Assembly: GCF_003609605.1 (NCBI RefSeq) | Contig: NZ_MCHY01000009.1 | Location: forward strand, 551,058 to 615,057 | Source of the DNA: Ammoniphilus oxalaticus | GTDB taxonomy: Bacteria > Bacillota > Bacilli > Aneurinibacillales > RAOX-1 | Direction: 5' to 3' | DNA length: 64,000 nucleotides | Position numbers and translations under genes: made by a program | The notes under the pieces: model-generated | The model's database searches: none | What the model saw: only the letters and a program-made list of their open reading frames with translations | What the model was told of the DNA's origin: nothing | In this document: piece after piece, positions 7,898 through 59,667 of the stretch | Layout: each line of letters starts with the position of its first letter | Numbering within the stretch: the first letter of the stretch is position 1

Positions 7898-8314
7898 ATG
7901 CTAGGATTAGCAAAAGGATTAGCTTATACCTTAAAGACGTTGACGGCCAAAAAGGTAACCCATGCCTATCCGGATGAGCCATACATTATGCCGGACCGAT
8001 TTCGCGGGATTCAGCACTTTGATCCGGAAAAATGCATTGTTTGTAACCAATGCGCGCGCATTTGCCCAACACAATGCATCGATTTGACTGGGAAGAAGTC
8101 AGAAGATCCGAATAAAAAAGGAAGAGTTATCAATACGTACGATATTAACTTTGAACTTTGTATTTTGTGTGACCTATGCACAGAAGTTTGCCCGACCGAA
8201 GCGATTGTGATGACGAATAACTTCGAGTTGGCGACCTACAGCCGCGACGACTTATTTAAAGATATGAAGTGGCTTCACGACAACAATACCAATGTGCGAA
8301 AGGAACAGCATTAA
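7898..8314 (+). CDS. nuoI: NADH-quinone oxidoreductase subunit I (2x[4Fe-4S] ferredoxin)
   Basis: Electron-transfer subunit carrying clusters N6a and N6b, 138 aa. Two complete ferredoxin motifs are visible: CIVCNQCARICP at about residues 46-57 and CILCDLCTEVCP at about 85-96. AAGGGGGAAA precedes the ATG. In the absence of NuoEFG this subunit is the likely entry point for electrons into the complex, as proposed for other 11-subunit complexes. Confidence 0.96.
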   Translation: MLGLAKGLAYTLKTLTAKKVTHAYPDEPYIMPDRFRGIQHFDPEKCIVCNQCARICPTQCIDLTGKKSEDPNKKGRVINTYDINFELCILCDLCTEVCPTEAIVMTNNFELATYSRDDLFKDMKWLHDNNTNVRKEQH

Positions 8315-8316
8315 AT

Positions 8317-8823
8317 ATGAGCTTACAATTCATAGCGTTTTTTATCCTTTCATTGGTAACCGTTGGCGGATCGGTGTTTATGATTAGCTTTGGACAACAA
8401 GTTATCCATCAAGTTATCGCTTTAGCTTTTAGTTTCTTAGGAATTGCCGGGTTATTCTTTCTGTTGGACGCGGAGTTCGTTGGAATCACGCAAATTCTTG
8501 TGTACTCTGGATCGATCACGATTCTCATGTTATTCGGGATCATGTTAACGAGACATGACCCTGAACCCGAACAGACAAAAAAGGGACCTAGAATCTTCTC
8601 ATTTGCTGTTGTCGCCGCTTTTTTCGTGATCATGTTCATCGGAATTCAGTCGATGAATATTATTGGCGAGCCTGCTGTTTACTCGGGTCAGTCTAATGTT
8701 AAAGAAATTGGGTTGCAATTGTTTACGGAAAATGTGATTCCTTTTGAGCTTACCTCCGTGCTACTACTCGTAGCGATGGTTGGCGCCATCGTTCTAGCCA
8801 AGAGGGAGGCGGATGATCAATGA
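8317..8823 (+). CDS. nuoJ: NADH-quinone oxidoreductase subunit J
   Basis: Membrane subunit, 168 aa with five hydrophobic helices. The segment [20 protein letters not shown] is the conserved NuoJ helix with the pi-bulge region. A longer frame opens at 8269 inside nuoI, but the ATG at 8317, two bases after the nuoI stop and preceded by AAAGGA, gives the family N-terminus. Its TGA overlaps the nuoK ATG. Confidence 0.95.
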
Positions 8824-9131
8824 GTGTACCTTTAACCTCATATTTACTCGTCGCGTTAATTTTGTTCAGTGTTGGACTTTATGGCGCCTTGACGAGACGT
8901 AATGCTGTGATTGTATTACTATCCATAGAATTGATGCTGAATGCGGTCAATATCAACTTTGTCGCCTTTGCTAAGTATGGTGTACTGGCTAACCTAACAG
9001 GTCAGATCTTCTCCTTGTTCAGCATCACGCTTGCGGCTGCGGAAGCGGCGGTAGGTGTGGCGATTATAATCTCCCTATACCGCAATCGCGCAACCGTTAA
9101 TGTGGATGAGATGGACTTATTAAAACGTTAA
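8820..9131 (+). CDS. nuoK: NADH-quinone oxidoreductase subunit K
   Basis: Small three-helix subunit, 103 aa, with the two conserved membrane glutamates in the segments [10 protein letters not shown] and [11 protein letters not shown] used for proton translocation. It overlaps nuoJ by ATGA. A 71-nt gap separates it from nuoL. Confidence 0.96.
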
Positions 9132-40733: not shown

Positions 40734-41585
40734 GTGCAGATATTAGAAAATGAATCTTTGAAAAAATATACTACAATCAAGATTGGCGGAAATGCAAAAC
40801 ATTTATATATTCCTGAAAGTATAGATGATTTGGTAAATTTAATGGAAAGAATTAAAAATGATAAATATTATATCATTGGTGGTGGTTCAAATATCCTAAT
40901 GAATGACCAAAAAACATATGAAAATGTGATTTGCTTGACTGCGATGGATAATAATATAAAAAGCTTAGGAAACGGTACTTACTATGTCGGCGCATCTGTT
41001 AGGGTGCAGGAATTAATCAATCATATAAACAAAGATGGTTTTTGTGGAATAGAATATCTATATTCAGTTCCGGCATTAATTGGAGGGGCTATTGTAATGA
41101 ATGCTGGCAGAGGAAGGGGACACGGACTTTCTATTAGCGACTTTATTGAAGAGGTTCATATATGGGATGGGGGCTCTATTAAAGTCGTTAAGAACGATAA
41201 ATGTGGTTTTGAGTATAGAAAGTCTAATTTTAAAAACAGTAAAGTCATAGTATTGGGTGGGAAATTTACCTTTGATAAAATTATTAATGATGGATCAAGA
41301 ATGACAAAGCAAGATAGAATAAATTATAGCAAAAAAGTTCAGGACTACAGTGGCCCAAGCTTCGGTTCAGTATTCTGTCAACATGATCGGAAAATAATGC
41401 AAATAGTAAGAATACTCTCTCCTGGTTTTAAAAATGGAATATCATTTTCTAATAAAACTTCTAATTGGTTAACAAATAGAGGAGAGGGGACTTACTTACA
41501 AGCTGTAAGTCTAATAAACAGGGTAAAGAGATATCACAAAATAATTGGAAGAAAGGCTGTTCCTGAAGTGATAATCTGGGAATGA
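40734..41585 (+). CDS. MurB-like FAD-dependent reductase within the EPS locus
   Basis: 283 aa. Looks like a type II UDP-N-acetylenolpyruvylglucosamine reductase: KYTTIKIGGNA, FAD-binding IIGGGSNIL (residues 47-55), PALIGGAIVMNAG, YRKS (Arg162), catalytic Ser212 in SFGSVF, and PEV (Glu278) at the end. The usual Asn-Pro after GSxFK is replaced by CQ. GTG start with AAGGAGGG. It is not next to mur genes, so either an extra MurB or an enzyme reducing an enolpyruvyl group on an EPS sugar. Confidence 0.85.
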   Translation: MQILENESLKKYTTIKIGGNAKHLYIPESIDDLVNLMERIKNDKYYIIGGGSNILMNDQKTYENVICLTAMDNNIKSLGNGTYYVGASVRVQELINHINKDGFCGIEYLYSVPALIGGAIVMNAGRGRGHGLSISDFIEEVHIWDGGSIKVVKNDKCGFEYRKSNFKNSKVIVLGGKFTFDKIINDGSRMTKQDRINYSKKVQDYSGPSFGSVFCQHDRKIMQIVRILSPGFKNGISFSNKTSNWLTNRGEGTYLQAVSLINRVKRYHKIIGRKAVPEVIIWE

Positions 41586-42904: not shown

Positions 42905-44044
42905 ATGACTTCGTTTTCCAAAGCCAAAATAAATGCAGGTCTATTAGCATTTTTTATGTTTATACCATCGTTAACTATACCTATAAAGATGTTCTTGCAA
43001 AATGGTGTAATTGTCTGGTTATTGAATCTAATATTATTAGTATTTTCAATATATAAAAATGGAATAAATAAGAAGTTTTTTGGGGTATTTCTATCACTTA
43101 ATCTTTTGTTTTTATTAAATATTTTAGTTGTTACCCATAAGAATGAAGTTCTTTCTATTTATATGGAGTTTTTAAAAATTTCTACTATCGCACTAATTTT
43201 AACTCTAAAAGAAATTGATTACGGGAAGTTTTATAGGGTTTGGTATATATTGGGTGTGGCTAATGTTTTTGTATGGACATTTTACATAAATCAATTAATA
43301 TCATCTGATATTGGCTATATGTTTTTTGGGACAAGCATGACGTATAGTTTTTCTATTATACTTTACAGGTTTCTTGATAAGAAAAATATTTTAGACCTAT
43401 TATTATTAATACTAACTTTTGTTTTCGTTGCTGTTTTTGCTAATAGGGGGGCTATATTAGCATGTAGTATTCTAATTCCAGTGTTGTTATATTTAAAGGT
43501 CAAGAAACATAGAATATTGTTAATATTTAGTACTATCCCTTTAACATTTTTTTATCTTATCTCAGACATTAAATTAAATTTAATCAATTTTATAATGTAT
43601 ATTAATAATATATTGCTCGATAATGATATAAAATCATATGCACTAATTAAACTTTCGAATATGTTTATACACGGGCTTGTTGAAAGTTCTTCTGGTAGAG
43701 ATGGAATTTTTCATCAATCTTTTGAGCTAATAAAAGATGGATTTCTCCCACGTGGAGTAGGATACTTTCAATATGTTACAGGTCTTGTTTATCCTCATAA
43801 TCTTTTATTAGACATATTTATTGTTTTTGGTATATTAGGCATACCTCTGATTGTATTAATAACTATACATATCATTAAATTTTTTAAGATTGAAAGGAAT
43901 TTCAGAAAAAAGGATATTGTAATTATTCTTTTAATAATGAGTTTGACTAGGCTCTCACTAAGTTCTACATTTTTGTATGATACTACGTTTTGGGTTTTAG
44001 TAGGGGTTGTTTTAAGTACGAATGTCTATAAAATTAGAGGCTAG
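42905..44044 (+). CDS. Wzy-type EPS polymerase (O-antigen ligase/polymerase family)
   Basis: 379 aa, about ten to twelve hydrophobic helices and few other features. ANRGAILACS and the large loop with SGRDGIFHQSFELIKD, then YPHNLLLDIFIVFGILG, are typical for the polymerase superfamily. The frame is open from 42767, but the ATG at 42905 with AAAGGGAG upstream gives a normal N-terminus. Joins repeat units on the outer face of the membrane. Confidence 0.82.
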   Translation: MTSFSKAKINAGLLAFFMFIPSLTIPIKMFLQNGVIVWLLNLILLVFSIYKNGINKKFFGVFLSLNLLFLLNILVVTHKNEVLSIYMEFLKISTIALILTLKEIDYGKFYRVWYILGVANVFVWTFYINQLISSDIGYMFFGTSMTYSFSIILYRFLDKKNILDLLLLILTFVFVAVFANRGAILACSILIPVLLYLKVKKHRILLIFSTIPLTFFYLISDIKLNLINFIMYINNILLDNDIKSYALIKLSNMFIHGLVESSSGRDGIFHQSFELIKDGFLPRGVGYFQYVTGLVYPHNLLLDIFIVFGILGIPLIVLITIHIIKFFKIERNFRKKDIVIILLIMSLTRLSLSSTFLYDTTFWVLVGVVLSTNVYKIRG

Positions 44045-44097
44045 AAACTAGAAGACTATCTAGTTATCCTGTTATGGATTGAGAGAAGGAGGAAATA

Positions 44098-44214
44098 GTG
44101 CGGGAACTCACTACAATAAATACCATTGGAGTTAGTATAGATATATGGACACTGGTTAAATCTTCACTATGGCAATTAGAGATGGCCTCTCGGGGACGTT
44201 TTACAAGAAAATAA
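44098..44214 (+). CDS. Possible small ORF of unknown function
   Basis: 38 codons from GTG, with a strong AAGGAGG five bases upstream; sequence RELTTINTIGVSIDIWTLVK then SSLWQLEM. Another 68-codon frame (44169-44375) overlaps it. Either a small gene or the frameshifted remnant of a longer one in the 644-nt gap between wzy and the next transferase. Not recognised. Confidence 0.3.
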   Translation: MRELTTINTIGVSIDIWTLVKSSLWQLEMASRGRFTRK

Positions 44215-44423
44215 CAGACAGGGAGATCATTGATCAAATCGACCAGGAGAGAGATTACCATACAATTCAAATGATGTGTCAAGTGTTGGTAGTACTTAAA
44301 AATATGTGTTATCAATTGATATACAGGTTAAAGTCATTGTATAAAATTGATAATGAAGCTGGTTTGAGAGAGTGAATTTTTTTGGAACGGAATTTTACAA
44401 TAATAAAAACAATAGGAAGCGGA

Positions 44424-44450
44424 TGAGTGGTGTTATTTACCCACTCTTTT
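44424..44450 (+). terminator. Short intrinsic terminator inside the EPS locus
   Basis: GAGTGG and CCACTC pair around TGTTATTTAC, followed by TTTTT. Lies 380 nt after wzy. The rest of 44215-44688 shows no gene; a new promoter before 44689 is possible but not convincing. Confidence 0.6.
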
Positions 44451-44688
44451 TAAGCGTGCACGCTAATAAAGGGTTAGGTTATTCACTTGTAAAGTCAAAG
44501 ACAATCGAACTGGGGCTTCAGGTCCTTAGTAATGCCAATTAAGTCCAGCATCCGAAGTAGGGACTTATTTTTGCATACCGATTTAAGCAGCCAGTAAGCG
44601 TTTCTACAAAGACTTAACTTTTTGTATCCCTAGATTCAAGTTCAAGGATATGTTTATAACAGTAAATATAGGCTAGAGGTGCTGTGAA

Positions 44689-45684
44689 ATGGTAGATTTG
44701 AAACCAGAGAATGGAATTATTAAGTCATGGAAAGGAAATATAAAAAATCCAAAAGTGAGTATTTGTTGTATAACATTTAATCACGAATCATATATCGAAA
44801 ATGCAATTAAAAGTTTCTTAATGCAAGAAACAGATTTTCCATTCGAAATCCTTATTCATGATGATGCCTCAACAGATGGTACACAAGACATCATACGAAA
44901 GTATGAAATGATGTATCCTAAAATAATAAAACCTATATATCAGACGGAAAATCAATTTTCCAAAGGGATAAGAATGATTTTTACATACAATTATTCAAGA
45001 GCATTAGGAGAATATATTGCTTTGTGTGAAGGAGATGATTATTGGACGGATAGAAAAAAGATACAAAAACAAGTGAGGATATTGGAAGAAAACAATGGAA
45101 TTACTTTATGTATACATTCGACCGGAGTATTTAGTTTACCTAAGAATTCCCTGGATTCAAATGAAATTAGACTTAAAAATGGAGATGAAATTTATAATGC
45201 AAGTCAAGTTATCTTAGGAGGAGGTATGTTTGGACATACTTCCTCATTTGTTTTTCGTAGAAAAGTAATTGAAAATCTTCCCGAGTGGTTTTTTGACTCC
45301 CCATCGGGAGATACACCATTAAGATTATTGAGTGCTAGCCTTGGAGATGTTTATTATATAGATCAGGAAATGTCTGTATATAGAAAAGGTATAGGTGGCT
45401 CTTGGACTAGTAGGATGCAAGAAAATAAAATATTTATAACCCATTGGGAGAAAAGCATTAAAATGTATGAAGAGTATAATGAGTATACTGACTACAGATA
45501 TTCACAAGCAATAAAGAAAAGAATTAGCCAAATTTCATACACTTTGATTTTAAGATTTATTTCACATATGAATGCAAAAAAACAATTAAAAGGATTCTAC
45601 TCACGTCTAGTTGTTATAGATAAATTGAAATTGAAAATTAAAGTACTCTTATTGTCCATCTCAGACATAAAAAAAGAATATTGA
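44689..45684 (+). CDS. Family 2 glycosyltransferase
   Basis: 331 aa. VSICCITFNHESYIENAIKS, HDDASTDGTQDIIRKYE and CEGDDYWTDRKKIQ (DXD equivalent near residue 115) are the GT2 landmarks. AGAGGTG precedes the ATG. Separated from the preceding transferases by a terminator, so perhaps acquired as part of a second cassette. Confidence 0.9.
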   Translation: MVDLKPENGIIKSWKGNIKNPKVSICCITFNHESYIENAIKSFLMQETDFPFEILIHDDASTDGTQDIIRKYEMMYPKIIKPIYQTENQFSKGIRMIFTYNYSRALGEYIALCEGDDYWTDRKKIQKQVRILEENNGITLCIHSTGVFSLPKNSLDSNEIRLKNGDEIYNASQVILGGGMFGHTSSFVFRRKVIENLPEWFFDSPSGDTPLRLLSASLGDVYYIDQEMSVYRKGIGGSWTSRMQENKIFITHWEKSIKMYEEYNEYTDYRYSQAIKKRISQISYTLILRFISHMNAKKQLKGFYSRLVVIDKLKLKIKVLLLSISDIKKEY

Positions 45685-45871
45685 TGTCAAAAAGTGTGTT
45701 CAAAATAGATAAGGAGTATTTTAATCGAATTCCAGGTTTCAAGATGATGGACGATAATTAATCTATAGAAGTAGTCGTGATCAAAATAATGAAAATGGTT
45801 AAAAATATAAAAAGGTGCACATTTTATGATGGGATTTTTTACAGATAATATAATAAATAAAGAGGAATTAT

Positions 45872-47377
45872 ATGGGTGATAATGGACAGTTAAAAAAAGA
45901 TACTATCAGGGGGCTTTTCTGGACCTTTGCAGACTTCTTTTCCTCTAGAGGAATTGGATTTATAATACAATTGTTATTAGCCCGACTTCTTTTACCAGTT
46001 CATTTTGGGCTGATGGGGATGATCTTAATTGTAATCGCAGTTTCTCAAACAATAGTTGACAGTGGAATGCAAAATGCATTAATTCGTGAAAAGGATTCTA
46101 CCCAGGAAGATTACTCAACAGTTTTTTATTTTAATTTAGTTATTTCATTCTTGCTTTATAGCGTTATTTTTGGAATAGCACCGTATGTAAGTCTATTTTA
46201 TGATGAACCAATTTTAACTGCATTACTACGAGTGTTGGGGATAATCGTAATTATTAATGCATTTAGTATTGTACAGAGAACAATTCTAACAAAAAATATT
46301 GATTTTAAAACCCAGACAATAATAAACATTATCTCTACGTTTTTTTCTGGTATTATTTCGATTGGGCTTGCTTTTTATGGGTTTGGAGTATGGAGTTTAG
46401 TTATTCAAAATGTTGTGGGACAACTTTTACAGTCAATTCTTTTAACAGTGCACAATCGATGGCTACCATCGTTAATTTTTAGTGTTGCGTCTTTTAAAAG
46501 ATTATTTGGATTTGGATGGAAATTGCTCATATCAAGTCTTATAGATACCAGCTATCAAAATTTTTACAATGTTATCATTGGTAGGACTTATTCCACAATT
46601 CCATTAGGGTATTATACACAAGCTCTTATGTTAAGAGATGTTGCGTCAAAATCAATCACATCAGCTGTTCAAAAAGTAACATATCCCGTTTTAAGTAAAA
46701 TGCAAGAGAATGAGGAACAGTTAAAACGTGGTTATCGTACTTTAATCAAGAGCTCAGTTTTTATCACGTTTCCTGTGATGATAGGACTTTCCGCTATTTC
46801 TGGAACGTTAATCCCGTTGTTATTTGGTGAAAAGTGGGCAGGGACTGTGCCCTTTTTCCAAATTTTATGTCTGGCTGGGATGCTCTATCCTTTACAGTCT
46901 ATTAATTTAAATATTCTTCAAGTTAAAGGTCGATCTGACTTGTTTTTAAAACTGGAAATAATAAAAAAAACATTTGGAATAAGTTTGATTACAATAACTA
47001 TAGTACTGAAACTTGGGATGTTCGTATTAGTATGGACATTAGTTATTTCTGCAGTAATCAGTTACTTTATTAATTCATATTATTCTGGGAAATTATTAAA
47101 TTACAGCACTAAACAACAAATTAAAGATATAACTAAGACAATGATATCCACCCTTATCATGGGTATATCAGTCATAATGCTTGGTTCACAATTAGATATG
47201 CTTAATAATTTGTTTTCACTAATTTTACAAATCATGTTGGGTTTCAGTGTGTTTGTTGGGATGTCATTAATTTTAAAATCTAATGAATTAAATTATTTTA
47301 TAAAAACATTGAAAACTCTTTTGAATAAGAAAGTGAAAAATCAAACTGAGATTGAGAAGGTGAGTAATAATCAGTGA
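45872..47377 (+). CDS. Wzx-type flippase (MOP superfamily)
   Basis: 501 aa with about 14 membrane helices. TIRGLFWTFADFFSSRGIGF at the N-terminus and the LARLLLPVHFGLMGM segment are typical of PST/MOP polysaccharide exporters. Translocates the undecaprenyl-linked repeat unit. Its TGA overlaps the GTG of the next gene, tying it to the amino-sugar cassette. Confidence 0.9.
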   Translation: MGDNGQLKKDTIRGLFWTFADFFSSRGIGFIIQLLLARLLLPVHFGLMGMILIVIAVSQTIVDSGMQNALIREKDSTQEDYSTVFYFNLVISFLLYSVIFGIAPYVSLFYDEPILTALLRVLGIIVIINAFSIVQRTILTKNIDFKTQTIINIISTFFSGIISIGLAFYGFGVWSLVIQNVVGQLLQSILLTVHNRWLPSLIFSVASFKRLFGFGWKLLISSLIDTSYQNFYNVIIGRTYSTIPLGYYTQALMLRDVASKSITSAVQKVTYPVLSKMQENEEQLKRGYRTLIKSSVFITFPVMIGLSAISGTLIPLLFGEKWAGTVPFFQILCLAGMLYPLQSINLNILQVKGRSDLFLKLEIIKKTFGISLITITIVLKLGMFVLVWTLVISAVISYFINSYYSGKLLNYSTKQQIKDITKTMISTLIMGISVIMLGSQLDMLNNLFSLILQIMLGFSVFVGMSLILKSNELNYFIKTLKTLLNKKVKNQTEIEKVSNNQ

Positions 47378-48318
47378 AAAAAAACATTATAGCAACGCCG
47401 ATTCAACCTATGAATTATAGTGACGGAAGTAATCATTACTACATAAAACGTGATGATTTACTTCCGTTTTCATTTGGAGGGAATAAAGTCAGGATTGCAG
47501 AGCAGTATTTTCATGATATGAAGAATAAAAACTGTGATTGTATCATTGCTTATGGCAACAGCCGATCCAACCTTTGTCGAGTCATTGCAAATATGAGTAA
47601 ATCACTTAAAATACCTTGCTTTGTAATTTCTCCATCTGATGACTCGGGGGGGCACATTGAGACAAACAATAGTAGAATTGTAAAGGCTTTGGGAGCCAAG
47701 ATGGTATATTGCAATAAAAAGAATATCTCACAAACGGTTAAAAAAGTTATGGATGATTGTATACAGAAGGGCCTGAATCCTTATTACATTTATGGAAATA
47801 TTTTTGGAAAGGGAAACGAAAAGGTAGCTGTTGAGGCATATGCCACAGCTTACGATGAAATAAATGAATTCGAATCAGAAAGCGGTGTCACTTTTGATTA
47901 TATATTCCATGCATCAGGTACGGGTACAACACAGGCTGGATTAATTTGTGGAAGTCTTCTATATGGAGATAATAAAAAGATTGTCGGGATCTCAGTTGCT
48001 CGGAATGCAAGCGATAATAAAGAAATAATTAAACATAATATATCAGAATACATGAACGGAAAAGTATATCGCGAAAAAGATATCTATTTTGAAGATAAAT
48101 ATGTCCTTGGCGGGTATGGGAATTATAATAATGAAATTATCAATGTTATAAATGAAATGCTTAGCCATGATGGTATATCGCTAGACCCTACTTATACCGG
48201 TAAAGCATTCTGGGGAATGACTGAATATTTGAAGGAAAACTCAATTGGAGGTAAAAAGATCCTCTTTATTCATACAGGTGGACTTCCATTGTTTTTTGAT
48301 AACATAAATTTAATTTAA
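47374..48318 (+). CDS. PLP-dependent enzyme of the D-cysteine desulfhydrase / ACC deaminase family
   Basis: 314 aa, fold type II. IKRDDLLPFSFGGNKVR carries the PLP lysine (Lys38), YGNSRSNLCR binds the substrate carboxylate, and SGTGTTQAGL binds the phosphate. GTG start in a GTGA overlap with wzx. Family members act on D-cysteine, ACC or related small amino acids, or do beta-replacement. In this place it may supply or modify an amino acid used by the ligase encoded next; the actual reaction is unknown. Confidence 0.82.
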   Translation: MKKNIIATPIQPMNYSDGSNHYYIKRDDLLPFSFGGNKVRIAEQYFHDMKNKNCDCIIAYGNSRSNLCRVIANMSKSLKIPCFVISPSDDSGGHIETNNSRIVKALGAKMVYCNKKNISQTVKKVMDDCIQKGLNPYYIYGNIFGKGNEKVAVEAYATAYDEINEFESESGVTFDYIFHASGTGTTQAGLICGSLLYGDNKKIVGISVARNASDNKEIIKHNISEYMNGKVYREKDIYFEDKYVLGGYGNYNNEIINVINEMLSHDGISLDPTYTGKAFWGMTEYLKENSIGGKKILFIHTGGLPLFFDNINLI

Positions 48319-48333
48319 GCAAGAGGGGTTATT

Positions 48334-49797
48334 ATGAATATACTATTAACTTCAGTAGGCAGACGCAGTTATCTCGTTAAATATTTTAAAGATGCTTTGG
48401 GGAATAGTGGTGAAGTACACGTTTCAAACAGCAGCGCTATTACCCCTGCTTTCACTTTCGCTGACAAATGTATAGTAACACCTCTTATTTATGATGAGAA
48501 TTATATTCCCTTTTTATTAGATTATTGCGAACAGAATAATATTAAAGCCGTCATATCTCTTTTTGATATCGATCTTCCAGTTTTATCAGCCAATAAGCAT
48601 GCTTTTTTGGAAATAGGGACACAAGTAATTGTTTCGAATAAGTCAGTCATTAATATTTGTAATGATAAGTTTGAAACATATAAATTTTTAATAAATAATG
48701 GATTCAATGCACCGAAAACTCTCATTTCCCTTTATTCTGCACTGGATGCTATACAGTCAAAATCACTAGAATATCCCCTAATCATCAAACCTCGTTGGGG
48801 AATGGGTTCGATAGGGGTGTTTGAGGCTCATAATGAAGATGAGTTGGGTGTTTTTTATAATAAAGTCATTTCAGAAATAAAAGGCAGTTATCTGAAGTAT
48901 GAAATACAAGGAAAGTTGGAAGAAAGTGTTCTAATACAAGAAAAATTGCCCGGACAGGAGTATGGATTAGATATTATTAATAATCTTGATGGGGAATATC
49001 AAAATACAGTTGTTAAGAGGAAGTATGCAATGCGTTCAGGGGAAACTGATAGTGCCGAAACAGTGGACAATTCATTGTTAAAGGATATAGGCGAAAATAT
49101 TAGCAAAAGTCTTCAACATATTGCAAATCTCGATGTAGATGTTTTCTTAAAAGACAATATTCCATATATCTTAGAAATGAACGCAAGGTTTGGTGGAGGG
49201 TATCCCTTTAGTCACATGGCGGGGGTTAATTTACCGTTAGCCATTGTGAAATGGTTAGATGGTCAACAAATTGATAGCACATTGCTTACAGAGAGAATCG
49301 GAGTTTTAGCGCATAAAGATATAGAAATAGTCCATATTCAGAATGAGGTTGATGATTATAAGATTATCAGACTTGAAACAAGCGAAGAAATATGTAATGT
49401 GCTCACTTCTTTTGATTATGTATTTCAGCCGTCGATATCACAGCGGATTGAGAATCTAAATCAATATGCGCAAAAGTTAAAAGATAATGCCCTTGTATAT
49501 GCGGCAAAGGATACCAATAATCAAATTATTGGTTTTGTGGTTTTTTATGTAAATGATATGGAAACAAAAACAGGATATGTAACCTTTCTTGCAGTACAGC
49601 CGTATGCCCGAAGAAGAAAGCTGGGCGAAAAACTTTTAGATTTTTGTATAAATGAATCAAGAGAAAATGAGATGTCTTCTCTAAAATTAGAAGTCCGCAA
49701 GCATAATGAGAAGGCTATACGATTATATGAGAAAAACGGTTTTGAATATTGTGATGAGGCTTCTGGGGATTCAGTGTATATGATTAAGAAATTGTAG
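48334..49797 (+). CDS. Fusion of an ATP-grasp ligase with a GNAT acetyltransferase
   Basis: 487 aa. Residues 1-330 form an ATP-grasp protein like the carbamoyl-phosphate-synthase large-chain type: ILLTSVGRRSYLVKYF, YPLIIKPRWGMGSIGV (ATP Lys), LEMNARFGGGYP (metal ligands). From about 390 to the end is a GNAT domain with FLAVQPYARRRKLGEKLLDF (acetyl-CoA loop) and YEKNGFEY. ATP-grasp enzymes join a carboxylate to an amine via an acyl phosphate. Between a PLP enzyme and a sugar aminotransferase it plausibly couples an amino acid to an amino sugar and acetylates it. Confidence 0.85.
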   Translation: MNILLTSVGRRSYLVKYFKDALGNSGEVHVSNSSAITPAFTFADKCIVTPLIYDENYIPFLLDYCEQNNIKAVISLFDIDLPVLSANKHAFLEIGTQVIVSNKSVINICNDKFETYKFLINNGFNAPKTLISLYSALDAIQSKSLEYPLIIKPRWGMGSIGVFEAHNEDELGVFYNKVISEIKGSYLKYEIQGKLEESVLIQEKLPGQEYGLDIINNLDGEYQNTVVKRKYAMRSGETDSAETVDNSLLKDIGENISKSLQHIANLDVDVFLKDNIPYILEMNARFGGGYPFSHMAGVNLPLAIVKWLDGQQIDSTLLTERIGVLAHKDIEIVHIQNEVDDYKIIRLETSEEICNVLTSFDYVFQPSISQRIENLNQYAQKLKDNALVYAAKDTNNQIIGFVVFYVNDMETKTGYVTFLAVQPYARRRKLGEKLLDFCINESRENEMSSLKLEVRKHNEKAIRLYEKNGFEYCDEASGDSVYMIKKL

Positions 49798-49811
49798 CAG
49801 AGGAGAAGATT

Positions 49812-50906
49812 ATGAAACCTATTCAAGTAACTCAATCCTCAATGCCCAACTTTAATGATTATATAGAGGAAATCAGGGATCTGTGGGATAGTCGATGGTT
49901 AACAAATATGGGGGTAAAACATAATCAATTAGAAAAAGAATTATCACATTATTTAAATACCCCTTACGTTAATCTTTTTACTAACGGACATCTTGCGTTG
50001 GAATGTGCGATAGCAGCTTTTAATCTCAAAGGAGAAGTTATAACAACGCCATTCACATTTGTGTCAACAACACATGCAATAGTACGAAATGGTTTAAAGC
50101 CTGTCTTCTGTGACATCAATTTGGATAATTATAATATTGATACAAGTAAGCTGGAAAGTCTTATAACGGATAAGACTTCGGCAATTATCCCTGTCCATGT
50201 CTATGGGAATATTTGCAATGTTGAAGAGATCGATAGGATAGCTAAAAAGTATGATCTTAAGGTAATCTATGATGCTGCGCACGCATTTGGTGTAACGGTA
50301 GATGGTGTTGGTGTTGGGAACTTTGGGGATGCTTCCATGTTTAGTTTCCATGCGACAAAAGTATTTAATACAATCGAAGGAGGAGCAGTAACCTTTAGGA
50401 ATTCAAATCTAAAAGAAACGTTAAATAGTATAAAGAACTTTGGTATTAAAGGTCGAGAGACTATTGAATATGTTAGTGGTAACGCAAAAATGAATGAATT
50501 TCAAGCTGCCATGGGGCTTTGTAATTTACGTCATGTTGAAGATGAAATAAATAAGCGTAAATTGGTAGTGAATAGATATAAAGAAAGGCTTAGTAATATA
50601 AAAGGGATAAGACTGCTTCAACTTCAAAAAGGCGTTAAAAGTAATTTTGCATATTTTCCTGTTGTTTTTGATGGTTATAAAATGAATCGTGATGAGATAG
50701 CTGAATCCTTGGCAATTAAAAATATTTTTGCAAGAAAATATTTTTATCCATTAACAAATAGTCTTGACTGTTATGAACAAAAATATGATGTTGATTTAAC
50801 CCCAGTAGCCAAATTTGTTTCGCAAAATGTATTAACTTTGCCGCTTTATGCGGATCTGTCTTTAGATGATGTTGATTTAATATGCGACACCGTTTTAGGG
50901 ACTTAA
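49812..50906 (+). CDS. DegT/DnrJ/EryC1/StrS sugar aminotransferase
   Basis: 364 aa PLP enzyme. DAAHAFG and the lysine of [10 protein letters not shown] (Lys183) are conserved; FSFHATKVF instead of FS.H..K is the normal VioA/WecE-type form. Transfers an amino group to a 4-keto sugar nucleotide. Since RfbA and RfbB follow, dTDP-4-keto-6-deoxyglucose is the likely substrate, giving dTDP-4-amino-4,6-dideoxyhexose. AGAGGAGAAG precedes the ATG. Confidence 0.9.
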
Positions 50907-50973
50907 AGGAGATGGGTTGGTTTATAGTGGCTGCGAGACTCTAGATCTATATTTTCTAAAAGGAGAGATCATT

Positions 50974-51867
50974 GTGAAAGGGATAATATTAGCAGGTGGT
51001 TCGGGTACTCGCCTTTATCCATTAACTAAGGCTGTTTCAAAGCAAATATTACCTGTTTATGATAAACCTATGATTTATTATCCGTTGTCTGTTTTAATGT
51101 TGGCAGGAATAAGAGAAATTTTGATTATTTCTACACCTAGAGATGTGGACGTATTTAAGGAGTTGCTAGGTGATGGCAGCAAACTGGGAGTTAAGTTTGA
51201 ATATGCGATTCAAGAAGAACCTAATGGTCTAGCGGAGGCTTTTATTATTGGGAAAGATTTTATCGGTGATTCAGCAGTTTCGTTAGTCTTAGGAGATAAT
51301 ATTTTCTATGGCTCTGATTTTGGAAATCGCTTAAAAAGGGCTGCAACTTTACAAAGTGGCGGAATTATATTCGGATGTTATGTTAAGGATCCAAGAGCTT
51401 ATGGTGTAGTAGAAGTTGATGAGAATATGAATGCAATATCAATCGAAGAAAAACCTGAAGATCCGAAATCATCTTATGCGGTTCCAGGTTTATACTTTTT
51501 CGATAATAAGGTAGTGGATATTGCAAAGAATGTAAGCCCATCAGAGCGGGGTGAAGTTGAAATCACGTCAGTGATAGAAGAGTACCTCAAAAGGGGGGAA
51601 TTAAAAGTACAACTAACTGGGCGGGGTTTGGCCTGGCTTGATACAGGAACGCACGAATCTCTACTTGAAGCATCTAATTTTGTTGAAGCTATACAAAACC
51701 GCCAAGGGTTATATGTCGCTTGTATCGAAGAAATAGCTTATCGAAGGGGATATATAGATAAAGAACAATTACTTGCTCTCGCACAACCACTGTTAAAAAC
51801 AGATTATGGACAGTATTTAGTTGAGGTAGCCCTTCAATCACAACATACGGAATTAACGATGGTATAG
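50974..51867 (+). CDS. rfbA: Glucose-1-phosphate thymidylyltransferase
   Basis: 297 aa. [32 protein letters not shown] and the metal loop VLGDNIFYG are complete. Activates Glc-1-P to dTDP-glucose. The GTG at 50974, eight bases after AAAGGAGA, is preferred; the frame opens at 50917. Pairs with rfbB; no rfbC or rfbD in the window. Confidence 0.95.
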
Positions 51868-51916
51868 AACTATATAATGGGACGTAAATTTGAATGAGAG
51901 TGGAAGGGTGAAATAA

Positions 51917-52936
51917 ATGACAATAAAGAAAGTGCTTGTTACTGGTGGAGCAGGTTTTATTGGTGGTAACTTTGTAAGGTACATGGCTGATAAATATAGT
52001 GATTATCAAATTTATAACTTAGATTTATTAACGTATGCCGGTGATTTAACAAAACATCGAGATATTGAGAACAAAGCCAATTACCACTTTATTAAAGCTG
52101 ATATCGCCAATCGAGACGAAATCAAGCCTCTTTTTGAAAAAGAGAGGTTTGATTATGTTATTCATTTTGCTGCAGAGAGTCATGTTGATCGTTCCATTAC
52201 CGATCCAGAGATATTCATCCGTACCAATGTGTTAGGAACCCAAGTTTTATTAGATGCTGCAAGAGAATTTGCGGTTACAAAATTTGTGCATGTTTCTACG
52301 GATGAAGTATATGGAGAACTAGATTTTGATCCGAACACATTTTTCACAGAGGATACACCTTTACAGCCGAATAGTCCATACAGCGCGAGTAAAGCGTCAT
52401 CGGACTTTTTAGTTCGCTCCTATTATGAGACCTATGGATTACCAATGAATATAACACGTTGTTCTAACAATTATGGACCCTATCATTTTCCCGAAAAATT
52501 GATACCTTTAACTATTTCTCGTGTGCTGAATGATCAGAAGGTACCAGTCTATGGGGATGGGAAAAATATACGTGATTGGTTACATGTGATAGACCATTGC
52601 GCGGCCATAGATTTAGTCATGCATAAAGCGCCAAGTGGTGAGGTTTATAATATTGGCGGACATAATGAACGTACAAACTTAGAAGTAGTAAAAACAATTA
52701 TTCATGCTTTGGGTAAATCGGAAGATCTGATTGAATTTGTAGAGGATCGACTAGGCCATGATAAGCGCTATGCGATTGATCCGACTAAACTAGAACAACT
52801 TGGCTGGAAACCTACATATACTTTCGAGACTGGAATAGCTCAAACCATTCAGTGGTATCTGGATAATAAAGAATGGTGGGAGCAAATTATCAGTGGAGAG
52901 TACCAAAAATATTTTGAAAAGCAGTATGCTATGTAA
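51917..52936 (+). CDS. rfbB: dTDP-glucose 4,6-dehydratase
   Basis: 339 aa. NAD-binding TGGAGFIGGNFVRY, the catalytic STDEVYGEL (Thr128, Asp129, Glu130) and YSASK (Tyr155, Lys159). Produces dTDP-4-keto-6-deoxyglucose, the branch point to rhamnose, viosamine or fucosamine-type sugars. Followed by the operon terminator; GGAAGGGTG upstream of ATG. Confidence 0.96.
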   Translation: MTIKKVLVTGGAGFIGGNFVRYMADKYSDYQIYNLDLLTYAGDLTKHRDIENKANYHFIKADIANRDEIKPLFEKERFDYVIHFAAESHVDRSITDPEIFIRTNVLGTQVLLDAAREFAVTKFVHVSTDEVYGELDFDPNTFFTEDTPLQPNSPYSASKASSDFLVRSYYETYGLPMNITRCSNNYGPYHFPEKLIPLTISRVLNDQKVPVYGDGKNIRDWLHVIDHCAAIDLVMHKAPSGEVYNIGGHNERTNLEVVKTIIHALGKSEDLIEFVEDRLGHDKRYAIDPTKLEQLGWKPTYTFETGIAQTIQWYLDNKEWWEQIISGEYQKYFEKQYAM

Positions 52937-52948
52937 ATTCTAAATGTT

Positions 52949-52995
52949 AAGCCGTCTGAGTCTACAGAGTAGACTCAGACGGCTTTGTTTTTTTA
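52949..52995 (+). terminator. Strong intrinsic terminator of the EPS operon
   Basis: A perfect 17-bp stem: AAGCCGTCTGAGTCTAC (52949-52965), loop AGA, complementary arm to 52985, then TGTTTTTTTATTTT. Confidence 0.96.
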
Positions 52996-53039
52996 TTTTC
53001 TATAATTTTTATTTTCTATAAATAGAGGAGTGTGTAGAG

Positions 53040-54206
53040 ATGAAAATAACAGTAGCAGGTACAGGCTATGTCGGGTTATCCAATGCCGTTTTATTAGCCC
53101 AGCATAATGAAGTGATAGCTTTGGATATTATTCAAGAGAAGGTGGACTTGATCAACAATAAAAAATCGCCGATTGCCGATCGCGAGATTGAAGATTTTTT
53201 GGCAACGAAACAATTGAATTTAACGGCAACGACTGATCAGGAAAAGGCGTTCAGTGAAGCCGAGTACGTCATTATATCCACGCCGACGGATTATGACCCC
53301 GATGCGAATTATTTCGATACAAAGAGCGTGGAGGCGGTTATAGCGAGTGTTTTATCGATTAACCCTGATGCGGTCATGATCATTAAGTCAACGATTCCTG
53401 TTGGTTATACGGAACGAATCAAGGAACAGTTTGAAACGGACAATATCATTTTCTCACCCGAATTTTTAAGAGAAGGCAACGCCCTGTATGATAACTTGCA
53501 CCCTTCCAGAATCATTGTTGGGGAACAATCCGAACGGGCGAAAGTATTTGCCAATCTACTGATGCAAGGGGCGGTCAAAGAGGATATCCCTGTCCTTTTT
53601 ACAAACTCCACTGAAGCGGAAGCGATTAAACTCTTTTCAAACACATACCTTGCGATGCGCGTCGCTTTTTTTAATGAGCTCGATTCGTATGCAGAAGTAA
53701 GGGGACTAGACACGAAACAAATCATTGAGGGCGTTGGATTGGATCCACGGATTGGGAGTCACTACAACAACCCATCTTTTGGCTATGGCGGCTACTGCCT
53801 ACCGAAAGATACGAAGCAAATGTTAGCGAACTACGCGGATATTCCAAACAACATTATGACCGCGATCGTGGATGCCAACCGCACCAGAAAGGATCACGTC
53901 GCCGATCAAATCATTAACAAAGATCCAAAAATCGTCGGAATCTATCGTCTAACAATGAAAACAGACTCCGATAACTTTAGACAGTCGGCCATTCAAGGTG
54001 TCATGAAGCGTATTAAAGGGAAAGGCATTGAAGTTGTCATCTACGAACCTACGCTGAATGAAGAGACATTTTATAATTCACGAGTTATCAATGACTTTGA
54101 TACGTTCAAACAGGAGTGTGACGTCATCATCGCCAACCGCCTATCCGATGATTTGAAAGACGTTGCGGACAAGGTGTATACGCGGGATGTGTTTAGTCGG
54201 GACTAG
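53040..54206 (+). CDS. ugd: UDP-glucose/UDP-sugar 6-dehydrogenase
   Basis: 388 aa, the compact bacterial form. [16 protein letters not shown] (NAD), [11 protein letters not shown], and the catalytic Cys253 in [13 protein letters not shown]. Oxidises UDP-glucose to UDP-glucuronate for the EPS. It has its own position behind the EPS terminator; base composition returns to that of the core genome. Confidence 0.93.
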
Positions 54207-54273
54207 TTTTGTTTCGTTATAAACATGTAAGTCTGATGAATAGAAGTTGTTTCGATAAAGGAGTGGATGAACC

Positions 54274-55635
54274 ATGGGAAAATATTTTGGTACGGATGGC
54301 GTCAGAGGAGTAGTGAACGAAGAGTTAACGCCCGAGTTGGCTTTTAAGCTAGGTCGATGCGGTGGGTATGTCCTCACAAAGGATCTTCAGGGTAAAAGGC
54401 CGAGGGTGCTGATTGGAAAGGATACACGGATTTCTGGGTGTATGTTGGAGGCTTCCTTGGTTGCGGGCTTGCTTTCGATTGGGGTAGACGTCATGCGATT
54501 AGGGGTGATCTCAACGCCAGGGGTTGCGTACTTAACCCGATCACTCGAAGCCGATGCGGGCGTGATGATCTCCGCTTCACACAATCCGTTTCAGGATAAT
54601 GGCATTAAGTTTTTTGGCGGGGACGGATTTAAACTTTCAGATGAACAAGAGGCGGAAATAGAGGACTTGATCGATCGCAAAGAGGATCAACTGCCTCGTC
54701 CCATAGCGGATGAAGTCGGAACTGTGATGGAATTTCGTGAGGGTGGACAAAAATACATATCCTATTTAAAAACAACGGTGAAGAACGAGTTCAACGGTTT
54801 AAAAGTCGTTTTAGATTGCGCCCATGGAGCAGCCTATTCACTCGCCCCTCAATTGTTCCGAGACTTAGGGGCGGAGACGGTCATCTTGGCCAATCAACCG
54901 GACGGATTGAATATCAATCAAGCATGCGGATCCACCCATCCAGAATCGTTACAAAAAGCGGTGATCGAGCATCAAGCGGATGTGGGACTTGCTTTTGACG
55001 GGGATGCGGATCGACTCATTGCTGTCGATGAAAATGGGGAGATTGTGGATGGAGATCAGATCATGTTTATCTTAGCTGCGGCAATGGCAAAAGATCTTCG
55101 TCTCAATCAAAAAACAGTCGTATCTACGGTAATGAGCAACATCGGCTTTTATAAGGGGATACAGGAGCAAGGATTAATGGCGAAACAAACACAAGTAGGC
55201 GATCGCTATGTCATGGAAGAGATGCGTAGAGAGGGTTATAATCTAGGTGGAGAACAGTCAGGTCATCTCATCCTGCTCGATTATAATACGACAGGGGATG
55301 GGATGCTATCGGGACTTCAATTGCTAGACATCATCAGATCGGAAGGCAAACCATTGTCTGAATTGGCCGCGCAGATGAACAAGTTTCCTCAAATCCTCGT
55401 TAACGTCCGGGTCGAAGATAAAACAGGCTGGGATACGAACGATCGGATTCAAGAGGCGATCCGTAGCGTAGAAGACAAGCTAGGCGAAAATGGACGGGTG
55501 CTTGTTCGACCATCCGGCACGGAACCGCTGATCCGCGTCATGGCGGAGGGGCCAGATGAAACGGAACTAGAACAATACGTGAACGCTATTGCAGAAGCGA
55601 TTAAAGAAGAACTGAAGAGCGGGATTTTAGTGTAG
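54274..55635 (+). CDS. glmM: Phosphoglucosamine mutase GlmM
   Basis: 453 aa. [20 protein letters not shown] is the family N-terminus; phosphoserine Ser102 in [13 protein letters not shown], metal loop DGDADRLIA, and [12 protein letters not shown]. Converts GlcN-6-P to GlcN-1-P for UDP-GlcNAc. In most Bacillales glmM follows cdaA and ybbR; here it stands alone behind the EPS genes, so it may be a second copy. Confidence 0.93.
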
Positions 55636-59196: not shown

Positions 59197-59667
59197 ATGG
59201 CGCGCAAACATCGGATCTGGTACCCGGGGGCTTCTTATCATATCATGTGTCGCGGCAACCGCCGTCATGATATTTTTCGGGATGATGAAGATCGTGAGTA
59301 TTATTTGTCTATCCTTCTTCACGTTCAGAGCAAGTTCCCCCATCTATTACACTCCTACTGTTTAATGACGAACCACGTTCATCTTCAAATTCAAACGAAG
59401 GATGATTCCATCAGTAAAATTATGAAAAGAATTAACATGCTGTATTCAATTTATGTTAATCGGAAGTACAATGTTGTCGGTTATTTGTTCCAGGGGCGTT
59501 ATCGTTCGGAACTGATCGATTCCGATGCGTATCAGCTAGAAACAAGTCGGTACATTCATCTCAATCCTTGGTTACGGTCGATCATATCTTGGGTTACTTT
59601 ACTCAACCAAGAGCTCAGCGGTATCGTTGGTATGTTGAATCTGGAATGTAGGGGGTCTGATCCCTAG
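59197..59667 (+). CDS. REP-associated tyrosine transposase (RAYT, Y1 family), C-terminally truncated
   Basis: 156 aa. ARKHRIWYPGASYHIMCRGN begins the Y1_Tnp domain; the HUH motif is MTNHVHLQIQ (His-Val-His) and the candidate nucleophile Tyr lies in FQGRYRSELID. After YIHLNP the usual continuation (a W-SSY segment and about 60-100 further residues) is missing; instead the frame runs into unrelated codons, and its last residues GSDP are encoded by a REP palindrome. Likely a decayed copy. AAGGGAGG precedes the ATG. Confidence 0.88.
   Translation: MARKHRIWYPGASYHIMCRGNRRHDIFRDDEDREYYLSILLHVQSKFPHLLHSYCLMTNHVHLQIQTKDDSISKIMKRINMLYSIYVNRKYNVVGYLFQGRYRSELIDSDAYQLETSRYIHLNPWLRSIISWVTLLNQELSGIVGMLNLECRGSDP
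59648..59665. repeat. REP palindrome (family C), copy 3, overlapping the transposase end
   Basis: GTAGGGGGTCTGATCCCT: again GTAG followed by a GGG..TC-T-GA.CCC stem, in the opposite sense of the central base (T instead of A). The TAG stop of the transposase is its last part. Confidence 0.8.

Follow-up and report, generated by a model that had tools for sequence, protein, structure and literature searches.

A candidate cassette for an acylated aminoacyl amino sugar in a polysaccharide locus of Ammoniphilus oxalaticus

Genes of the cassette and the dTDP-sugar branch

We analyzed a 64,000-nucleotide stretch of the Ammoniphilus oxalaticus genome (contig NZ_MCHY01000009.1, positions 551,058 to 615,057 of the forward strand), here called the window, in which a cassette of sugar-nucleotide genes occupies positions 47374-52936 of the window's own numbering. 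An earlier note, made from the letters alone, had described five adjacent genes there, encoding a pyridoxal 5'-phosphate (PLP) enzyme, an ATP-grasp/GNAT fusion, a DegT aminotransferase, RfbA and RfbB. The list of open reading frames and domain profile searches place all five contiguously on the + strand, each with the domain claimed for it (Table 1). These genes are genuine, but the module is larger than had been described, extending upstream to take in a flippase gene and a gene for a GT2-family glycosyltransferase. Judged by its domains and their relatives, the cassette very probably makes a rare amino sugar bearing an acetylated amino acid.

Table 1 Features of the cassette and its extension, in window coordinates
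Feature	Position	Strand	Evidence
GT2-family glycosyltransferase, probable transferase of the modified sugar	44689..45684	+	PF00535
Wzx-type flippase	45872..47377	+	PF13440
PLP enzyme, fold type II, D-cysteine desulfhydrase/CuyA superfamily; proposed amino acid supplier	47374..48318	+	PF00291, 103 bits
ATP-grasp/GNAT fusion	48334-49797	+	PF21360, PF02655, PF00583
PylC-like ATP-grasp domain, residues 1-336; proposed amino acid:amino-sugar ligase	48334..49341	+	PF21360, PF02655, NF009404
GNAT domain, residues 337-487; proposed N-acetyltransferase of the attached amino acid	49342..49797	+	PF00583, 65 bits
DegT aminotransferase, VioA/DesI type; proposed dTDP-4-keto-6-deoxyglucose 4-aminotransferase	49812..50906	+	PF01041, 323 bits
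RfbA, glucose-1-phosphate thymidylyltransferase	50917..51867 (start likelier 50974)	+	TIGR01207
RfbB, dTDP-glucose 4,6-dehydratase	51917..52936	+	TIGR01181
Terminator-like hairpin after the cassette	52949..52985	+	17-pair stem and T tail; consensus match only

The genes are closely packed. The last 4 bases of the flippase gene are shared with the PLP gene, and the spacers that follow are 15, 14, 67 and 49 bases long. The third of these is measured to the GTG codon that follows AAAGGAG and is more likely the start of RfbA than the TTG chosen by the open reading frame finder, which would give the protein an unlikely leader.

RfbA and RfbB score 474 and 490 bits against TIGR01207 and TIGR01181, respectively, above the curated cut-offs of 360.65 and 365.1, and on the strength of this family membership they are predicted to convert glucose-1-phosphate to deoxythymidine diphosphate (dTDP)-4-keto-6-deoxyglucose. 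The absence of rfbC and rfbD that had been reported for the locus holds genome-wide, in an assembly with a completeness of 99.93%; orthologues elsewhere in the genome, which the earlier note had named as evidence that would count against its reading, were searched for and not found. PF00908 (RmlC) has no match in the whole assembly, and 11 of 14 control genomes have one. The best genome-wide match to TIGR01214 (RmlD), at 60.7 bits against a cut-off of 224, is RfbB itself, and this cut-off is passed in 9 of 14 controls. RfbB is again the top match among nine in the genome to the generic PF04321, seven of which exceed its low cut-off. With no rfbC, and no rmlD above cut-off, the dTDP branch should therefore not end in rhamnose, which we rejected as the end product.

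DegT has its top NCBIfam match in TIGR04427 (dTDP-4-dehydro-6-deoxyglucose aminotransferase, DesI), which is likewise the first match of the annotated VioA of Escherichia coli O7; the window protein, O7 VioA and the O121 enzyme score 284, 310 and 275 bits, all short of the cut-off (650). Against the WecE-type model TIGR02379 the window protein scores 133 bits. The best solved relative found with phmmer is PDB 2po3 (181 bits, labelled "4-dehydrase"), which we take to be DesI. The biochemistry of VioA and DesI serves as the background to these matches. The protein is 46% identical to O7 VioA, 45% to PM22 VioA, 43% to the O121 enzyme and 47% to that of O123, and 24-27% identical to five DegT proteins of uridine diphosphate (UDP)-type loci. 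In a 14-row tree that holds four of those five, the VioA group and the UDP-type group are split with support of 100/99, and the window DegT groups with E. coli O7 VioA and pairs at 98/95 with its counterpart from L040, a locus described below. The tree and the identities support the claim that DegT makes a 4-amino sugar, and the relationship to VioA argues strongly for dTDP-4-amino-4,6-dideoxyglucose (dTDP-Qui4N) as the likely sugar product; within the overall reading given below we hold this assignment with high confidence. A 3-amino sugar was considered and rejected, given the grouping of DegT with VioA and the lower score of QdtB (3frk, 152 bits) than of 2po3.

The ATP-grasp, GNAT and PLP proteins

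The first domain of the fusion protein scores 358.7 bits against NF009404 (cut-off 316) and 96 bits against PF21360 (cut-off 27), which places it in the PylC/PRK12767-like group, and its N-x-RFGGG motif is invariant in all seven aligned rows. The roles of this and the other named ATP-grasp and GNAT motifs are presumed to be those generally given for them. AlphaFold2 models of the fusion and of the PLP enzyme (mean pLDDT, the predicted local distance difference test, of 48.5 and 42.5) were too poor for a fold search. Relatives of the ATP-grasp domain at an E-value of 1e-45 occur in 6 of 398 genomes of the window's class, the window's own included; in a phage collection none was found at 1e-30. 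In Lachnoanaerobaculum and a related oral member of the Lachnospiraceae an ATP-grasp gene directly follows a flippase gene (8001-9008 of locus L009, with the same pair in L010-L013).

The GNAT domain is 32.5% identical to the GNAT protein of the E. coli O121 cluster (E-value 3e-18), and when the O121 protein was searched against the window genome, the window GNAT was the best match (2.5e-17; next match, 2.0e-8). The GNATs of the window, O121, L040 and the E. coli locus L068 also align in a segment before the core domain. The gene order in O121 is rfbB, rfbA, DegT, WbqC, GNAT, Wzx, GT2. The N-acyl groups that the review PMC3210612 lists for Qui4N include N-acetylglycyl, for which an O121 structure study is cited, N-acetyl-D-alanyl (in Pseudoalteromonas) and N-[(R)-3-hydroxybutyryl]-L-alanyl. 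Being the genome's best match to the GNAT of a cluster whose O-antigen is given in that review as containing N-acetylglycyl-Qui4N, the domain is a good candidate for the N-acetyltransferase of an aminoacyl group, the role first proposed for it. WbqC itself (PF08889) has no match in the window genome; 2 of 14 controls have it. Since a homologous GNAT and a VioA-type DegT are common to both systems and the window genome has no WbqC match, the ATP-grasp domain, with the help of the PLP enzyme, appears to stand in for WbqC. VioB or another acyltransferase is present in the O7 and PM22 stretches, and neither a GNAT nor WbqC is among their annotated features. A row in E. coli A25 with an O123/O186-family flippase (L070, 8951-12709) places DegT before a WbqC-family protein, a 324-residue protein with no Pfam match, a GNAT and a MaoC dehydratase, and is perhaps another aminoacyl-sugar scheme.

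The PLP enzyme had been called D-cysteine desulfhydrase/1-aminocyclopropane-1-carboxylate (ACC) deaminase-like. The superfamily is right, but every curated cut-off is missed: 123.9 bits against 392 for ACC deaminase (TIGR01274), 156.1 against 289.4 for D-cysteine desulfhydrase (TIGR01275) and 156.4 against 450 for the D-cysteate sulfo-lyase CuyA (NF052482), although the last is the best match. On this score ACC deaminase was rejected as its function; a position that is Thr or Ser in the aligned PLP rows is presumably glutamate in true ACC deaminases. All eight rows of the alignment retain the GGNK lysine motif, the SN pair and the Y-[TS]-GKA signature, and the L085 protein, outside it, reads GGSK. 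Because these signatures are kept and the best profile matches include D-cysteine desulfhydrase structures, the protein is likely to be catalytically active.

Distribution and exchange of the cassette parts

Neighborhoods were tabulated for 23 loci, which leaves out, among others, L010-L020, L042-L044 and the E. coli stretches L069-L074. Twenty PLP-match loci lie outside the window, and an ATP-grasp gene was scored as present when a homologue lay within 3 kb. L065 opens at a contig end that falls within the PLP gene, leaving half of its neighborhood unseen, and contig ends also cut L063, L064, L066 and L067.

The genes rfbA, rfbB, DegT, ATP-grasp and PLP occur together in L040, L068 and L085. 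In L040, from a genome (G464) of the window's phylum and another class, a GT2 gene, Wzx, a PLP-GNAT fusion, ATP-grasp, DegT, RfbA and RfbB stand in the window order. On the E. coli plasmid NZ_LR890610 (typed IncR), rfbB, rfbA, Wzx, DegT, GNAT, PLP, ATP-grasp and GT2 genes are consecutive, and in L085 (G1734, one of 395 genomes sampled from the phylum of Leptobacterium) the row is rfbB, rfbA, Wzx, DegT, formyltransferase, PLP, ATP-grasp and GT2. L062 (G756) has all but rfbAB, with Wzx, PLP, ATP-grasp and DegT present and rfbAB and GNAT without a match in the 18 kb read. A Wzx homologue stands beside the cassette in these four loci and in L039, and homologues of the window GT2 enzyme do so in L068 (44% identity), L039 (36%), L040 (35%) and L085 (57%, over the best stretch); weaker ones occur in the O123, PM22 and O121 clusters. 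Among E. coli genomes the 3.4 kb stretch from DegT to ATP-grasp is at least 80% covered in 4 of 5426, in all four on plasmids; the other 167 records with a match, among the matches listed, cover only 15-19% of it, over a DegT gene. On E. coli plasmids an O-antigen-like gene row lies between transposase genes (L068, 2974-11848; L074, 7525-16399). In a second class of loci (L041, L059, L060, L061 and L091) the PLP and ATP-grasp genes lie near what appears, from its first residues, to be a PglC-type sugar transferase. Three of them, L041, L059 and L060, also have a distant DegT, and the loci of this class may use UDP sugars.

The gene set occurs infrequently and in scattered places. At an E-value of 1e-45, PLP-enzyme relatives were found in 3 of 299 genomes of the window's phylum (Bacillota), the window's included, and at 1e-50 in 13 of 391 genomes of the class of G464; the neighborhoods of 10 of these 13, G464 among them, were read, and G958, G588 and G841 (about 176 bits) were left out. 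At 1e-60 there is one in 398 genomes of the phylum of Sphingobium (G1178), around which the other cassette genes had no match, and there are seven in the 395 sampled from the phylum of Leptobacterium; among the seven, L085 has the full dTDP set, L091 has PLP, GNAT and ATP-grasp genes, and the other five have neither. The earlier note had proposed looking for co-occurrence of the genes other than rfb, and the outcome is divided: an ATP-grasp gene lies near the PLP gene in 9 of the 20 PLP-match loci and not in the other 11 (L065 among them).

This division bears on whether the PLP enzyme belongs to the pathway at all. An ordinary amino acid might be attached, with the PLP gene a passenger or a detoxifying enzyme; O121 handles glycine with no such PLP gene in its annotated cluster, L009 has the ATP-grasp gene without a PLP gene, and L063 and L064 have a PLP gene with no ATP-grasp gene in the stretch read. 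We consider this unlikely, if to be taken seriously, since the PLP and ATP-grasp genes are immediate neighbors in seven of the nine loci (L040, L041, L060, L061, L062, L068 and L085), the PLP-GNAT fusion of L040 ties the PLP enzyme to the acylation step, and in L039 and L045 the ATP-grasp gene shares its cluster with an unrelated PLP enzyme of the ornithine/diaminopimelate (DAP) decarboxylase type. In a 20-row PLP tree (window included, L065 left out), eight generic rows of 28-34% identity form one side with support of 100/99, and ten cassette-type rows with L063 and L064 form the other. The generic rows were so labelled because cassette genes were not found beside them, so that their lack of an ATP-grasp gene is not an independent result. 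The branch is thus for the most part, though not wholly, dedicated to the cassette context. From the gene neighborhood and the L040 fusion we lean slightly toward a PLP enzyme that supplies the attached amino acid.

The two loci with the other PLP enzyme extend this picture. L039 combines the ornithine/DAP decarboxylase-type enzyme and an Acetyltransf_6 protein with Wzx, ATP-grasp, DegT, RfbA and RfbB, and in L045 a 50% relative of that enzyme adjoins its own ATP-grasp and DegT genes. Such a pairing of ATP-grasp genes with two unrelated kinds of PLP enzyme is what one would predict were the choice of amino acid made by the PLP enzyme. In L060 (3232-5356) a third decarboxylase-type gene of this kind lies beside a second, distant ATP-grasp gene; that locus already has a fold-II PLP and ATP-grasp pair. 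A more far-reaching proposal, which we offer tentatively, is that the PLP group is a biosynthetic branch of its superfamily whose members make or epimerize an amino acid for no purpose other than its attachment to a sugar nucleotide; D-amino acids and beta-substituted alanines, cysteate for one, would be examples. On this view the ATP-grasp, PLP and acyltransferase trio would be a mix-and-match system, present in three phyla or more, that decorates 4-amino sugars linked to dTDP as well as to UDP.

The acyltransferase is the part most visibly exchanged. The GNAT is fused to ATP-grasp in the window and to the PLP enzyme in L040, and is free in L068; the gene row of L085 contains a formyltransferase (PF00551, 75 bits) in place of the GNAT, and GNAT genes of another type adjoin the PLP/ATP-grasp pair in L041, L060 and L091. 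Because the GNAT moves between fusion partners and is replaced by a formyltransferase, the most economical interpretation is that one small substrate, an amino acid, would be shared by the ligase, the PLP enzyme and the acyltransferase, with acetyl or formyl as the acyl group on its amine. The ATP-grasp domain might instead attach a hydroxy or keto acid, made by the PLP enzyme through elimination and deamination. The PLP superfamily does contain lyases and deaminases, the Neisseria ATP-grasp/phosphoglycosyltransferase PglB2 is described in PMC11130364 as responsible for a glyceramido acetamido trideoxyhexose, and no acyltransferase is seen in L059, L061 and L062. Such an acid is nonetheless improbable here: the GNAT or formyltransferase found with the set in six of the nine loci that have both PLP and ATP-grasp genes (L040, L041, L060, L068, L085 and L091) suits a free amine on the acyl group, and the window GNAT is kin to that of O121, whose acyl group is given as N-acetylglycyl in PMC3210612.

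Setting, proposed pathway and known systems

Upstream of the cassette, profile searches identify Wzz-like and CpsB/CapC proteins, a CapD-like protein, a bacterial sugar transferase, glycosyltransferases and a pyruvyl transferase, with a weak Wzy_C match (1.3e-6, under the family cut-off). A UDP-glucose 6-dehydrogenase gene at 53040 and a phosphohexomutase gene follow downstream. In this the region resembles an ordinary Wzx/Wzy-type locus. GC content is 0.27-0.34 in the genes measured between 41684 and 50906 and 0.37-0.38 in RfbA and RfbB, below the window average of 0.425, which suggests that the block is of foreign origin, as for a transferred serotype-specific block. In 44000-54400 there are 6 terminator-like hairpins against 4.6 expected from shuffles, and the most paired of them (17) lies directly 3' of RfbB.

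The dehydrogenase gene, 103 bases downstream of the cassette, raises the idea that the ATP-grasp domain amidates a uronic acid, such as the product of that enzyme, with an amino acid, while the GNAT acetylates the amino sugar itself. This is very improbable, given that the terminator-like hairpin intervenes, that GC steps from 0.37 to 0.44, and that the dehydrogenase has no listed match in the stretches read of L040, L062, L068 and L085, all four of which have DegT.

Other features of the region were noted. A MurB-like protein (40734-41585; 126.8 bits against a murB cut-off of 144.5) is encoded between the pyruvyl transferase and glycosyltransferase genes. A short open reading frame at 59197-59667 resembles by eye what we take to be a REP-associated (repetitive extragenic palindrome) or IS200-like transposase. 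About 30 kb downstream (645320-658949 of the window's contig, C9 of genome G000), a 342-residue epimerase-like frame and a 619-residue frame, the latter matching PF04321 much as the window's CapD-like protein does, suggest another polysaccharide locus nearby.

We propose, at a probability of about 0.7, that the cassette is a horizontally moving module for dTDP-4-(N-acyl-aminoacyl)amino-4,6-dideoxy-D-glucose with its own flippase and glycosyltransferase. RfbA and RfbB would supply dTDP-4-keto-6-deoxyglucose from glucose-1-phosphate, and DegT would transaminate it at C-4 to dTDP-Qui4N. The PylC-like ATP-grasp domain is then predicted to activate the carboxylate of an amino acid and join it to N-4 as an amide, and the fused GNAT domain to N-acetylate that amino acid, either on the sugar or before its attachment; we regard an N-acylated amino acid at N-4 as probable. 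The PLP enzyme might make or epimerize the particular amino acid attached. The GT2 enzyme would add the modified sugar to the repeat unit, and the Wzx protein would flip the unit. Every step of the earlier note's pathway on which a comparison could bear agreed with it, and the pathway as a whole is what we infer from these genes.

Several observations weigh against this proposal. The DegT score lies under the DesI equivalog cut-off (284 against 650), though so does that of O7 VioA (310). The acetyl-CoA motif of the window GNAT is RRRKLG, with a glycine lost, against RGKGIG in O121, which makes its activity less certain, and the named relatives of the PLP enzyme mostly degrade amino acids. Among the loci, rfbAB was not found in L062, DegT was not detected in L061 and L091, and three of the nine PLP and ATP-grasp loci (L059, L061 and L062) show no acyltransferase. 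The ATP-grasp gene of L009 occurs without DegT or PLP neighbors, and no PLP relative was found at 1e-20 in its genome; conversely, the close PLP relatives of L063 and L064 (44% and 46% identity) have no ATP-grasp gene in the stretch read. We also know of no polysaccharide structure for any locus with the PLP and ATP-grasp set.

To our knowledge, the enzymes that load an amino acid onto such sugars are mostly unassigned, and the cassette offers a compact, testable set of one ligase, one acyltransferase and one PLP enzyme. The natural swaps, of GNAT for formyltransferase, fold-II for decarboxylase-type PLP enzyme and ATP-grasp for WbqC, predict which part sets which feature of the sugar. Similar blocks in unrelated bacteria look like a portable tool kit. 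If the proposal is true, a genome sequence could reveal how the sugar is decorated, and the enzymes could serve in the preparation of such sugar nucleotides.

Several surface polysaccharides are known to contain aminoacylated amino sugars (PMC3210612). Among the papers listed by literature searches, which covered few subscription journals, no title or abstract opening describes this gene set. The set, which the earlier note could not place, can nevertheless be placed as an O121-type scheme with an ATP-grasp and a PLP enzyme instead of WbqC. E. coli O121 (N-acetylglycyl-Qui4N) likewise keeps rfbB, rfbA, a VioA-type DegT, a homologous GNAT, a flippase gene and a GT2 gene together; it differs in having WbqC, and neither an ATP-grasp nor such a PLP gene is among the features of its stretch. 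The vioA-vioB pair of E. coli O7 presumably makes Qui4NAc. O7 shares rfbA, rfbB and VioA with the cassette, but has VioB instead of the ligase and GNAT, plus rfbC and rfbD. Neisseria PglB2, which we take to work on a UDP sugar, is not a close match in architecture, as a phosphoglycosyltransferase domain is not among the Pfam matches of the window ATP-grasp protein, which carries the GNAT instead. By its description in PMC11130364, PglB2 is alike in using an ATP-grasp domain in the N-acylation of an amino-trideoxyhexose and unlike in adding glyceramide rather than an aminoacyl group and in its fusion to a phosphoglycosyltransferase. The type B flagellin locus of Clostridioides difficile (CDR20291_0244-0247) offers a further parallel, drawn from published descriptions. 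The terminal sulfonated peptidylamido sugar, whose 3-amino-3,6-dideoxygalactose (Fuc3N) carries glycine, alanine and taurine (PMC5207245), is missing from mutants in the ATP-grasp gene CDR20291_0245 and from mutants in 0246, a putative ornithine cyclodeaminase gene (PMC5207246), and the ATP-grasp gene clusters with an FdtB homologue (PMC5207246; PMC5207245). That locus differs from the cassette in its 3-amino sugar, in an ornithine cyclodeaminase rather than a fold-II PLP enzyme and in a FemAB protein rather than a GNAT, yet it too combines an FdtB-like aminotransferase, an ATP-grasp protein, an amino-acid enzyme and an acyltransferase with an aminoacylated amino sugar.

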